From an uncultured Lentisphaerota bacterium (GTDB taxonomy: Bacteria > Verrucomicrobiota > Lentisphaeria > Victivallales > GWF2-50-93): a DNA stretch of 38,394 nt. The translations under genes were made by a program, and so were the position numbers. Where the stretch lies: NCBI GenBank assembly GCA_903872565.1, contig CAIQLG010000279.1, positions 1 to 38,394 of the forward strand, read 5' to 3'. Position 1 is the first letter of the stretch. Each line of letters starts with the position of its first letter. The notes below the pieces were generated by a model. It made no database searches. It worked only from the letters and a program-made list of their open reading frames with translations, and had not been told where the DNA came from. Shown piece by piece: positions 1 through 38,330 of the stretch.

Positions 1-27
1 GAAAATAATGCATTCATAATTTTCAAA

Positions 28-141
28 ATGCCTTTTTTTATTTCCATTCCAATTCCATGCGTCTTTGCCTTTTCTTAACCCAAAACCAATAATCCACTAA
101 TCCGAAAATCCATCAATCCGTCATCCTGTGGGATGACTATG
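28..141 (+). repeat. Left arm of ~115-bp inverted repeat containing an octamer-phased (NNNNATCC) array and a GTCATCC-TGTG-GGATGAC hairpin
   Basis: Reverse complement of 2979-3093 with about 6 mismatches by eye; core aataatcc/actaatcc/gaaaatcc/atcaatcc/gtcatcc. Confidence 0.9.
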
Positions 142-2834: not shown

Positions 2835-2978
2835 TTCAGGATTTTATCAGTATTTCAGGGAATTTTCACCTCCTTTAACGCTCTAAAGAAAAACTTTAAG
2901 GCTTTTGCTGCTTCACTTTTGTATTTTGACATGTCCTGTGTTATGGTAGGAGCCGTGGCTTGTTCTTGACCCACAAGC

Positions 2979-3093
2979 CATAGTCATCCCGCAGGATGAC
3001 GGATTGATGGATTTTTGGATTGGTGGATTATTGGTTTTGAGTTAAGAAAAGGCAAAGATGCATGGAATTAGAATGGAAATAAAAAAAGGCATT
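2979..3093 (-). repeat. Right arm of ~115-bp inverted repeat (GGATTNNN octamer array)
   Basis: Reverse complement of 28-141. Confidence 0.9.
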
Positions 3094-3100
3094 ATCTTTA

Positions 3101-3262
3101 GTGTCAGAGTGTAATCGTTATTTTTTTAGGAAAATAACTGTGTCAGGGTGTCAGAGAAAAAACTTTGACTCTTTGATACAATGACACATTGACACTACTG
3201 CCAGTCTTGATTTGCAACAATCCAGCAATCCATTTATCCAATAATCCATGGGACGATACTGT
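3101..3262. repeat. Octamer-phased element: GTGTCAG units, facing TTGACAC units, then a second NNNNATCC array
   Basis: gtgtcagggtgtcagag ... tttgactc/tttgatac/aatgacac/attgacac ... caacaatcc/agcaatcc/atttatcc/aataatcc/atgggacgata. Confidence 0.75.
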
Positions 3263-3292
3263 GACCAAGCATAACGAAAATTAGATGTATTA

Positions 3293-6200
3293 ATGAGAAC
3301 ATTTTGTGTAAATTGTGGAAAGACCGAGGACATCCGTAAGGATGCAAAGGGTAACAATGTCTGTGCGGGATGCGGCAGGCAAGTGGAAACGTCTTCCGCG
3401 AATCTCTCTGCTGGAACACTTATAAACGGATTCCTCCTGGAGAGTAAGATAGGGCAGGGGGGGATGGGAGTGGTCTACAAGGCCAAGCAGCTCAATCTTG
3501 AACGGTTTGTCGCACTCAAAATACTTTCCGATGAATTGGCCAAGGATGCCGACTTCGTCGAAAGATTCTTCAGAGAGGCGCGTGCAGCAGCAAGCCTTAG
3601 CCACCCAAACATAGTCCAGGTTTATGATGCCGGAAGCGCAGAAGGTGGGATATATTATTTTGCCATGGAACTGATAGAGGGGGAAACTCTTGAGACCAAA
3701 ATATTCCGGGACGGGGTCATCTCTCCGAAGGATGCACTGAACATATCGCTTAAAATAGCGCAGGCTCTCGAATATGCCTGGGACAAGCAGAAACTTTCGC
3801 ACGGGGACATAAAGCCGGAAAACATAATGTTGAACAGCAGTGGCGGTGTCAAGCTGGCTGATCTGGGACTCGCGAAAACGCAGCACGAAGACAAGGCATT
3901 GAAAGATGGCGGCATAATGGCAACTCCATTGTATGCTCCACCCGAACTCATAGCGGGGGACACCTACAGGATTGATTTCAAGTCTGACATGTATTCCTTC
4001 GGCGCGACCTTGTACAACATGCTTGCCGGCACCCCTCCTTTCAATGATCCCAGCACGGAAGTCGTCCTCAAGAAACACCTCAACGAAAGGCCGAAACCGC
4101 TCTCTGAATTCAACTTGGAACTCAATCCCGCGATCACTAAAATTGTTGACAGCCTGCTTATGAAAAATCCCGAGGACAGACCCTCATCCTGGAAGGAAGT
4201 CATCAAGTCCATCGAGAAGATCCATGATGTCGAGAAGAAGGTATTTCACAAGTCTCACGTGAACATATCTCCGAAGGATATTGAATTCATAAAGAAGCCT
4301 TCGACCGGACCTTACGTCATCAGAGAACCCGTCAGTCAGGGAGCAAAGGTTGTCAAGACTCTTGTCCTTCTGATTGTGTTCCTTTCCGTGTTACTCCTGG
4401 CACTCTACATGGCTAAATTGAACAAACCCCCTCAACATGGCAACTCTGCGGGAACTTCCAGCGCCTCATCCGCGATGGAAAAAGACTGGAAAAAGTTGAA
4501 AGCCAGAGTCGACTCTTATACCTCTCCGGTGCAGGGGGTTGACGAAATAGATGAATACAGGGTCAAAAACGACAAGAAACTCTCGGTTGAGCTTCAGACT
4601 GACATTATGAACAAGAGAAACGAACTTCTGAAAAGGAAGGAGATGAACAGTAGTCGAGAGCAGATGGTCAAGGATTTCCAATCAAAGGTGCAGTCACTCA
4701 AACAATCTCTCGGGAAGGATTTGTCGAAGGAAAAGGATGAGGATCTCAACAAGCTTGTCGTGACGATCGAAGGCGTTTTCGTTGGAATCAGCAAGAATCG
4801 CGGTATCCTGGTAGTTTCAGCGGCTGACAGCAAATATTTAACCAACAAGTCTCTTGAGATTTCACAGGTGCTTCAAAACAGGAAAAATGACAGCGACAGA
4901 CTTCTTGCGAAAAAAGCTCAAAAGGATGAGGAGGCCAGAAAAGAGGAGCAAAGGCTCATGAAAGAGGAGCAAAGTAAAAAAAGGGCTGAACTCCTGGCGC
5001 AGAACAGGCTTTTGGATCAATACTTTCTGATCCTTTCAGACATTTCAACATCCTCGGACTATAAACCTCTCGTCAAAAATCTTTCGGATTGGGCGGCAAA
5101 ACAAAATCTCCCTCCGGATTACAAGAAAAAGGTTCAGGCACTCGTGGACAACTGTCCTGCCGAGTACCCCACAGACATTTTCATCAGGAACAGTCGATTT
5201 TTCAGTCAGGATATCCCTCTGGCGTTCGAAGATGTCCCCTCGGACTACAAGTTCTGTGAGATTGACGAGAAAAAGGGATTTGTCTTTGAAAATCCGGGAG
5301 GCAAAGTTAAATGGTACATGGCTTGGAACAAGATATCTCCACGGAATTATATTGCATTGATAAAAGCGCTTATCTCAATTCCTGGAACATCCATTACTGA
5401 CAAGGACAAGAAAATGATCATGTCGTACTGCGTGTTGAGGGGGGTGGGCAGTACTGCCCTGGAAGTAATATCCTCGAAGCCGATGTCTCCTGATGATTTG
5501 AAGACATGGTCTGATATCACATCGGATGTCAAGAACATCGCAAAAGAGAAGGAGCTGATACAAAAGTTCTCATCCATGATGACTCTCAGGAGCGAAAACA
5601 AAAACGGGGAGGCGGCACAAGTCTTCCTGGAAATCATGAGTGGAACCGGCGGCACAGTTTTCGGAAAAAGATATGAGACGGAATTTAACCACCTCGCGAC
5701 CGAGTTGAAAAACTTCTCGCCAGCCCTCAACTCACTTAATTTCCTGTTGGAGAGTAAAAAACTGCTTGCTCAACAGAAATATTTGCTCGCCTTAGCCAAT
5801 GCTTCAACCGCAAAATCAAGGATTGGCAATTATCAGGCACTGCCGGATCAGGTCAGAAAAGATATTGACTTCTGTGTGGCTTCGGCGCTCGCCGGGATAT
5901 ATCCTACGCTTGCCATTAGCAATCTTAAGGATATGCCTCCCCCGTTTTCGATGTGGGAGACGGAGAATCCGGCGTTTCAGCTGGCTGCATATCAGAAGAT
6001 GAAAAACTCCGACAGCCTCAAAGATAATCCCAGGGTACTTTCCACTCTGGAAATGTCAGGATACATGTCGGCGGGATCTTGGGAGAACGCATTGGATCTC
6101 TTCGGCTCGGAGGCTTTGGATGTGGATTCAATAGCAAAACTGGAATCAAGGCTTGGCCCGTGGACCAGTTCATTCCTTTTCGCAGACGGTCTTTTGCTGC

Positions 6201-34874: not shown

Positions 34875-35841
34875 ACCGCCGTTTAGCATTAGCCCAAAGT
34901 CAATCAATCTGATTGCCGATATTTCGGCCCAAATTGAACGCTATGCCATTCGGATGGAGCAGGAGGATGGTCTGCTATTGCGCAAAATCAACCGGATAAA
35001 AACCATTCATGGCTCTTTGGCAATTGAAGGCAACACCCTGTCCGAAAGCTTGATTACCGACATTATCGAGGGTAAACCGGTGGTAGCGCCCTTGCGGGAA
35101 ATCCAGGAAGTAAAAAACGCCATTAAAACTTACGATGCCTTTTCGTCTTTAAATCCTTTCAGAGTTGATGATTTATTGAAGGCCCACGGTTTAATGATGG
35201 AAGCTCTGGTAGATGATGCTGGTCATTTCCGCAGAAGCGGGGTTGGTGTTTTTTCCGGCTCCAAGGCAGTTCATGTTGCTCCGCCTGCCGCTAATGTTCC
35301 ACATCTAATGAATGATTTGTTCGATTGGCTAAAAAAATCGGAGGATCATTTGCTGATTAAAAGTTGTGTTTTCCATTATGAGTTTGAATTCATACATCCA
35401 TTTATAGATGGCAACGGGCGATTGGGCAGACTCTGGCAGTCGCTGATATTGAGTAAGCTGCACCCTATATTTGCCCATTTACCTGTTGAAAACATTGTTT
35501 TTCAAAATCAGCAGCAATATTACGACGCCATAAGCCAAAGCACAAAAGCAACGGATTGTTGCCCGTTTATTGAATTTATGCTTGAAGAGATTCTTACGAC
35601 ACTGAAAAAACGGCAAGGCAAACCGTTGAAGGCGGAAAGTAATGACACTGCAAATGACACTGCAAATGACACTGTAAAATTAATTAAGGCGAATCAGAGA
35701 ATTACGATAGATGAGCTTGCGTTAAAATTAAACAAATCGCGCAGAACAATAACTCGGATTATCAAGAAGTTGCAGGAAGATGGTCTTGTTTCCAGAATGG
35801 GTTCCGATAAGACGGGACAATGGCAGGTAAAAGATGAGTAG
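34858..35841 (+). CDS. Fic-family protein with N-terminal inhibitory motif and C-terminal wHTH
   Basis: [12 protein letters not shown] Fic motif; SLAIEGN inhibitory motif; C-terminal [30 protein letters not shown]. Confidence 0.92.
35641..35676 (+). repeat. 12-bp tandem repeat x3 inside the fic gene
   Basis: aatgacactgca aatgacactgca aatgacactgta, encoding [12 protein letters not shown]. Confidence 0.95.
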
Positions 35842-36455: not shown

Positions 36456-38330
36456 ATGAAAACGTGGAACATGAAATGGTGCGTGACGCTTGCAGCTGCG
36501 ATGGTAATTTGTTTCTGGCAGACCACGGCGTATGCGCAGATAACCGACAACAACTGGAGTGCGCTTGATCAGGGTTTTGACAACACGGTGAATGCCCTCG
36601 CGGCTAGCACAGACGGCACATTGTATGCTGGTGGCGTATTCGTCAACACCACCGGTGGGATTCTGTGTGATCGTGTCGCCAGTTGGAACGGATCTGTCTG
36701 GAGCAGTATCGGAGGAGGAATTACTGGCAGTGATCCAACCGCTGTAACCTCAATTGCGGTTGCTGCTGATGGTACATTGTACGTGGCTGGTATTTTTACA
36801 GCTGCCGGCGGAGTCCCGTGTAATAACATCGCACGCTGGGATGGGACAAGTTGGAGCGCCTTAAGTTCCGGAATCGACGGTCCCGTGTACTCGCTTGCGA
36901 TTAATAATGCCTCCGGGATATTGTACGCAGGAGGAGCTTTCCTATCTGCCGGCGGAGTTCCGTGCGATAACATCGCAAGCTGGGATGGAACAAACTGGAG
37001 CCCTATGGGCACAGGAATTAACGGCGCAGTTTACACACTAGCTATTGATCCTGCCTCCGGTGTCTTGTATGCGGGAGGTGAATTTATTGCTGCCGGCGGA
37101 GTTCCGTGCGACAACGTTGCGTCTTGGAATGGAACTAACTGGACAGCACTCGGGCCGGGAACGAATGGCTCTATCTCTGCACTTAAAATTGATGCTTATA
37201 GTGAATTGTATGCAGGAGGCGCCTTTACAACTGCCGGCGGAGTGGAGTGCAATCATGTCGCCCGTTGGGATGGGACAACCTGGAATGCACTGGGAGTGGG
37301 AACAGATGGCCCTGTATACTCTCTTACTATTGATAATGCCTCCGGGAATCTTTTTGCGGGAGGCCTTTTCGCAACCGCCGGCGGAGTCACATGCAATAAC
37401 ATCGCACGCTGGGAGCTGACGGGTTGGACAGCATTGGGTTCCGGGACTGATTCCAATGTCTCAGCCCTCAAAATCATCGGCACAAATTTGTATGTAGGCG
37501 GGGTTTTCTCATTAGCCGGCGGGAAGTCGGGAACTCTCAGCATCGCAAGATGCTCCTTGTCCAATCCGGTGACATTGGGGAAGATTTTTCAGCTCTTCCC
37601 GACCAATATCACTGGTTACACTATTGCGAATTTCGCAACAAAACCTTCGGTGAAAGCCACTTATACCGTTCCATTCTCGGATCCGCCGAAAACTGGAAGC
37701 ACCGGGATGAAGCTCATGAACAAGATCACAGGAGTGTCCCCAGCTCCCATCTATGCGGATTTCGAATGGACGAAAACTGTCAAGCTTGTTGACAGCAAAG
37801 AATGGCTTAAGACGGAAACTTGCGCACAGACATTAGCAAGGCTTTTCCCGCCGCGCGCAAAGATCACCTCGCTAAATTGCGAACTCGCCACGAAGATAAC
37901 TTTCACAAATGTGGCAGGAGAAAAAGTCAAGCTCACGGCGGCATCAACAATCAGTGTTGAGCTCATGCCACCGGTCATATACGAGGTGATGTTTACCGAT
38001 CCTCCCGGATTAGTCACCGCTGTTGCCGGCCCTAATACCAGGCTCGCAATATACGGAGCATATTTCGGCAAATCGGCTCCATCAGTGTGGCTGGAATATC
38101 TTGACGGGACCACTGTTAAAAAGCTCAAGTTGAAAGTGCAGAAACCATATGCCTTCGACGATTACAAGGGTGCGCATTTCAAGAGCTGCATGGACATTTA
38201 CGATGGTGACAGTCAGATCAATGTGACAACTCCGGAATGGCCGAGCGGCTGGAATCATTCGGTTCCCCACAACATTGTAATAGACAACAAAGTTGCAAGG
38301 GCTACAACTGCTTTCAACACGATGCCGTAA
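36456..38330 (+). CDS. Secreted protein with seven ~48-aa beta-propeller-like repeats and a C-terminal IPT/TIG-like region
   Basis: Signal peptide; repeated WxALGxGxxGxVxxLxIxxxxGxLYAGGxFxxAGGVxCNNIAxWDGT; RBS ggaggaattgtaatg. Confidence 0.8.
   Translation: MKTWNMKWCVTLAAAMVICFWQTTAYAQITDNNWSALDQGFDNTVNALAASTDGTLYAGGVFVNTTGGILCDRVASWNGSVWSSIGGGITGSDPTAVTSIAVAADGTLYVAGIFTAAGGVPCNNIARWDGTSWSALSSGIDGPVYSLAINNASGILYAGGAFLSAGGVPCDNIASWDGTNWSPMGTGINGAVYTLAIDPASGVLYAGGEFIAAGGVPCDNVASWNGTNWTALGPGTNGSISALKIDAYSELYAGGAFTTAGGVECNHVARWDGTTWNALGVGTDGPVYSLTIDNASGNLFAGGLFATAGGVTCNNIARWELTGWTALGSGTDSNVSALKIIGTNLYVGGVFSLAGGKSGTLSIARCSLSNPVTLGKIFQLFPTNITGYTIANFATKPSVKATYTVPFSDPPKTGSTGMKLMNKITGVSPAPIYADFEWTKTVKLVDSKEWLKTETCAQTLARLFPPRAKITSLNCELATKITFTNVAGEKVKLTAASTISVELMPPVIYEVMFTDPPGLVTAVAGPNTRLAIYGAYFGKSAPSVWLEYLDGTTVKKLKLKVQKPYAFDDYKGAHFKSCMDIYDGDSQINVTTPEWPSGWNHSVPHNIVIDNKVARATTAFNTMP

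Follow-up and report, generated by a model that had tools for sequence, protein, structure and literature searches.

A nested, MITE-like element with conserved words at 8-bp phase in Lentisphaerae genomes

The window analysed here, a stretch of 38,394 bp from a draft Lentisphaerae genome, contains a short element located between a response-regulator gene that ends at 2834 and a kinase gene that begins at 3293. Its exact bounds, read from the sequence, are 2979-3261; it is A+T-rich (63.6% vs. 53.9% for the window) and, lacking any ATG frame longer than 32 codons, is without coding capacity. All of the parts listed in an earlier, sequence-only reading are present (Table 1): the left-end hairpin, four units of GGATTNNT (3001-3032), GTGTCAG words (3100-3116 and 3139-3155), octamers of the opposite sense, four units of NNNNATCC, and a tail. 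The arms are nested inverted repeats, the order that this reading had proposed.

Table 1. Coordinates of the element, its parts and its surroundings within the window.
Feature	Position	Strand	Basis or remark
Left flank TGACCCACAAGC	2967..2978	.	sequence
Whole composite MITE	2979..3261	+	283 bp
Left terminal inverted repeat CATAGTCATCCC	2979..2990	+	ends set by 9-bp duplications at other copies
Left-end hairpin GTCATCC-CGCA-GGATGAC	2983..3000	+	pairs 5-22 to 11-16; almost invariant in 21 aligned copies
Left phased array GGATTGAT GGATTTTT GGATTGGT GGATTATT GG	3001..3034	+	sequence, period-8 scan, copy comparison
Middle region, left half	3035..3099	+	poorly conserved among copies, about 60% identity
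Inner palindromic repeat AGTGTCAG...TTGACACT, separate family nested in MITE	3100..3196	+	
Small stem GTTATTTT/AAAATAAC inside inner repeat	3117..3138	+	present too in stand-alone inner-repeat copies
Right words of inner repeat TTTGACTC TTTGATAC AATGACAC ATTGACAC	3164..3195	+	
Right phased array AACAATCC AGCAATCC ATTTATCC AATAATCC	3216..3247	+	inverse of left array
Right terminal inverted repeat GGGACGATACTG	3250..3261	+	shared ends of copies
Second copy, left half, at the contig's broken left edge	27..141	-	search of the window's own genome

A 331-bp query returned 59 matches in the window's own genome, and the left-end signature, allowing up to three mismatches, was found at 59 places there, with none for the control; a related genome, G006, holds 65 left ends. 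In consensus, the element is bounded by terminal inverted repeats of ∼12 bp, CA(G/T/C)(A/T)GTCATCCC ... GGGACG(G/A)(C/T)A(G/C)TG, which in G006 take the form CAGAGTCATCCC and GGGACGGCAGTG, and which are imperfect in the window copy. The usual length is ∼207 bp; the window copy is longer because a second palindromic repeat family occupies its middle. Long open frames contain only 4 of 54 two-ended copies (vs. 81% of random placements), bearing out, along with the dozens of copies, the earlier description of a composite element that is dispersed and intergenic.

Flanks of these 54 two-ended copies were compared at lengths from 4 to 13 bp, taking as expectation the matches obtained when flank pairs are shuffled among copies. 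A target-site duplication of 9 bp, matching at eight or more of nine positions, borders 21 copies (39%; 14 of them perfect), where 0.2 would be expected, and nothing comparable was seen at any other length in that range (8 bp: 2 vs. 0.2). Examples in the window's own genome include ACTTAATGT (contig C46), CTTGTTTTT (C386), TTTTTATTT (C11), and AAATGGAGC (C3); A+T makes up 79% of the duplicated sites. As 9-bp duplications at copy ends are a signature of transposition, the family is recognisable as a non-autonomous, MITE-type transposon, and the window element is very probably a nested MITE, one copy of this mobile family. The left flank of the window copy and the sequence to its right (TGACCAAGC, 3262-3270) differ at three bases and may be a decayed 9-bp duplication, a suggestive resemblance in the flanking letters.

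The distribution of the MITE was examined in 61 genomes, sampled from the window's own genus up to its order; 6 of the 8 genomes of its taxonomic family carry the element, and the remaining 53 genomes of the order yielded none. Carriers include the Lentisphaerae MAGs GWF2_50_93, GWF2_49_21 (G005), GL140_5, and one labelled Victivallis vadensis. Single left-end copies were also observed in MAGs assigned to other phyla (L217, on a Geobacteraceae contig, and L227, on a Chloroflexi contig), both on short contigs that are perhaps misbinned. Within its own genome the MITE has multiplied recently. A hand tally from copy coordinates puts at least 41 of the contig ends in this draft (G000, 606 contigs) within MITE copies, the left edge of the window among them. 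The assembly breaks at these sites because recent copies are near-identical, and since contigs end inside the element, both the true copy number and the content of the gaps are hidden.

The AGTGTCAG...TTGACACT palindrome in the middle of the window copy also occurs in about seven other MITE copies, and the inner GTGTCAG palindrome exists outside the MITE as well, defining a separate repeat family. Where this inner part is absent (C46, C386), GGCATT is followed by a short neutral middle and then by the right arm. In contig C3, a 352-bp composite carries the inner insert together with two further hairpins, and the perfect 9-bp duplication that surrounds it (AAATGGAGC) indicates that the nested form is mobile as a whole. 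Stand-alone inner repeats have about 50 conserved bases preceding the palindrome; the inner repeat was seen in the window's own genome only, among 21 genomes. Might this inner repeat be a mobile promoter carried by the MITE, its outermost TTGACA serving as the -35 box of the next gene? For 10 of the 13 stand-alone copies, the distance from the end of the repeat to an open frame downstream is 24-76 bp, in a single orientation (on the other strand) and with TTGACA or CTGACA as last word; several, such as those ahead of pyrD-like and def-like genes, have a -10-like hexamer (TATGAT, TATAAC) 16-17 nt beyond TTGACA. However, the kinase strand of the window copy shows nothing that resembles a promoter, the repeat is confined to one genome, and no target duplication was seen around its stand-alone copies. 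We regard a promoter function as somewhat unlikely; it concerns the inner part alone and is compatible with a nested MITE.

Nesting extends to smaller hairpins. One of these, CGCCGTAG...GGCGG, is found in several copies (L129/L003, L079, L088, and others) within octamer 3 of either arm, at mirrored places, and in some copies on both arms; it also lies within inner repeat C282, and in G006 a different hairpin, TTCGCC...GGCGAA, interrupts the arms likewise. Cyanobacteria have very small mobile hairpin repeats inserted precisely into other repeats; their sequences are different, whereas the hairpins described here interrupt arm octamers. The CGCCGTAG...GGCGG hairpin was also noticed elsewhere, at sites flanked by CTCCA/TGGAG. 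In addition, one MITE copy in G006 (L374, C1:92613-93282) is itself interrupted by an element of ∼460 bp (ends GGGAACCTCTAAAAA / TTTTTAGAGGTTCCC), which adds another level of nesting.

Each MITE arm contains four words, TGGAT, recurring every 8 bp. Of the four arrays, three have an 8-bp self-match of 0.70-0.73 and one has 0.47. A scan of the 38-kb window for stretches of 36 bp with a period-8 match of ≥75% detected them inside the element only (21 of 28 matches vs. 16-18 in the control, a mononucleotide shuffle); no 36-bp stretch in the window attains 75% at any other period from 5 to 11. Genome-wide periodicity was judged by pattern counts with reversed controls. The excess of 8-bp periodicity across the genome on which the sequence-only reading had staked its case is present, since TGGATNNNTGGATNNNTGGATNNNTGG is frequent (83 occurrences in the window's own genome, 56 in G005, and 235 in G006) and its reversed control pattern is absent from all three genomes.

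Conservation within the octamers, measured outside those that served to find copies, is sharply divided. Among 25 distinct full-length copies, the word letters (GGAT, plus T at position 8) show 97-98% pairwise identity, while the three spacer letters per octamer are 58-65% identical, similar to the middle region at 60% (permutation p 5e-5); the word is kept, and the spacers vary about as much as the neutral middle does. The phased word described earlier, conserved in part and free in part, is thus upheld, as is the remark that it is unlike an ordinary microsatellite. Uniform 8-bp tandem arrays are known elsewhere in the phylum (G091, G201, G213), and an octanucleotide satellite enlarged by slippage could resemble them. 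Such a satellite would have a homogeneous unit and ends that are not fixed, but units here differ at three positions with five staying fixed, and the arrays, of about four units each, are paired in inverse orientation, have fixed ends, and are accompanied by target duplications, making this origin hardly credible. Selection for mobility, acting on a recognised word, fits best. The four words per arm may form a recognition array for a transposase or an accessory protein, a model to which we give a little less than an even chance, and which would explain conserved word letters alongside unconserved spacers. Two further regularities were considered and discarded: a preserved word order between the arms (inverted words in direct order) is hinted at by one subfamily and is not general, and octamer numbers on the two arms show a correlation of only 0.2.

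Not all word arrays reside in a MITE. G005 and G006 contain many without an inverted partner or recognisable termini, and those in G005 that lack termini are not predicted by a pure transposase-site model. Phased TGGATNNN arrays could instead exist independently, as sites read by a nucleoid or regulatory protein of the host, with the MITE having captured two of them as arms. Consistent with this, arrays of 3-5 words without inverted partner occur in G005, G006, and G003, many beginning 4-25 bp from a gene end, and direct arrays lie outside any MITE in the window's own genome (C38) and, as a long example, in G011, which belongs to another family of the order. On the other hand, solo arrays adjoin genes in both orientations, which leaves them without a consistent sense of RNA or strand; L291 and L294 are among several that can be recognised as halves of decayed MITEs, although others cannot; and as solo arrays were found by exact pattern, their conservation is not an independent finding. 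We consider independent host sites rather unlikely. More speculative still is a broader proposal, distinctly unlikely in our estimate, that the five-in-eight array is a selected DNA module of these Lentisphaerae: a protein would read one word per 8 bp, off the helical pitch, gene ends would be marked by solo arrays, and the same 8-bp register would underlie two or more unrelated families of palindromic repeats (with TGGAT and TGTCA words). As a separate observation, six solo (TGGATNNN)4 arrays in G005/G006 start 4-13 bp past the stop codons of unrelated genes (L260, L261, L263, L270, L274, L276).

The sequence-only reading had further suggested that a transcript of the element could fold into a single long stem. 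The strand does fold well (-106.7 kcal/mol vs. -69.7 for shuffles; z -7.7), but good folding is inherent in any inverted repeat. Word pairs are uninformative on pairing because they hardly vary. For the variable octamer letters in hairpin register, 140 of 288 pair, compared to 137.5 after octamer permutation, and the RNAalifold covariation term for an alignment of 21 copies is -0.04. Comparing copies for covariance, the check proposed for this stem, revealed coordinated changes on both arms at 2 of 12 variable pairs (position 5 of octamers 1 and 4), the others mostly not changing jointly; these two are too few, and too bound to subfamilies, to support the stem, and covarying base pairs throughout it, as expected of a structured RNA, are absent. 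With spacer letters almost devoid of covariation from arm to arm, the long RNA stem is unsupported. No Rfam family matches the element above gathering threshold, and a structured RNA or long RNA stem as the selected product is very improbable.

For a nested MITE, movement would be expected to depend on a DDE transposase acting in trans. Among matches to PF01609 and PF13808, the two families searched in these draft assemblies, no transposase gene with MITE ends was identified; DDE_Tnp_1 and ISAs1-type transposases were rejected as autonomous partners, as their termini do not match the MITE. End pairs 0.5-4 kb apart enclosed no transposase at the loci read. Long units between inverted word arrays, in G005 (C46, 3 kb) and G006 (C30, 2.4 kb), were also set aside, no transposase being recognised inside; the G005 unit contains host genes. 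In the window's own genome, a transposase of 437 codons whose N-terminal part weakly matches the ISAs1 type was encountered (L256, C491:711-2024), with no MITE-like inverted repeats around it.

REP and REPIN sequences resemble the elements described here in being small palindromic repeats that end in a hairpin and are dispersed between genes. Movement without target duplication is expected of them, and REPINs are not known for 9-bp duplications, which the present elements do make. By the features tested (short, non-coding, with inverted ends, a fixed 9-bp duplication, and dispersed intergenic copies), the family belongs among bacterial MITEs, represented by MITEAba12 (PMC6382973) and the Correia elements (reviewed in PMC10969869), which are similarly gene-less, 0.1-0.3 kb long, bounded by inverted ends, intergenic, and directed to A+T-rich targets. 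Even the fraction of copies with duplications is alike, MITEAba12 having 9-bp duplications in 40% of copies (PMC6382973) vs. 39% here. In contrast to MITEAba12 and Correia elements, the terminal sequence is unrelated, the search of PF01609 and PF13808 genes yielded no autonomous partner, the arms consist of a conserved word at 8-bp phase, and a second repeat family is nested inside the element. BrickBuilt of Porphyromonas gingivalis is likewise an always-intergenic MITE containing repeat units (PMC4596501), but these form one direct array of 23-nt units, whereas here 8-nt units with five fixed and three free letters form inverted arrays on both arms. The TAACTGA direct repeats of Beggiatoaceae are also short phased words, grouped in small arrays in intergenic DNA near genes (PMC4679880); in that case the period is 7, the whole word is repeated, arrays lie mostly just upstream of starts, and no terminal repeats or mobility mechanism are evident, in contrast to the period of 8, free letters, both orientations, and mostly transposon-borne arrays found here. 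The composite, for which the sequence-only reading could name no fitting family, can now be assigned a kind: its inverted ends, its 9-bp duplications, and its many copies are those of a MITE. The open-access literature yielded no description of a family with this set of features (subscription papers and ISfinder lay outside the search).

Lentisphaerae thereby gain a clearly delimited family of miniature transposons with recent activity, one that accounts for dozens of breaks in a draft genome, and whose arms keep a word at 8-bp phase while the letters between are free. If the word array is read by the transposase, the ends would be organised in a way unusual among bacterial elements; if it is read by a host protein, it would represent an undescribed DNA-binding system.

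Two other repeats were noted in the window. Three 12-bp repeats, AATGACACTGCA, lie at 35641-35678 in a gene for a Fic-like protein, where they encode a repeated NDTA, and 144-bp repeats at 36800-37143 belong to a long repeat-protein gene with a signal-like start.
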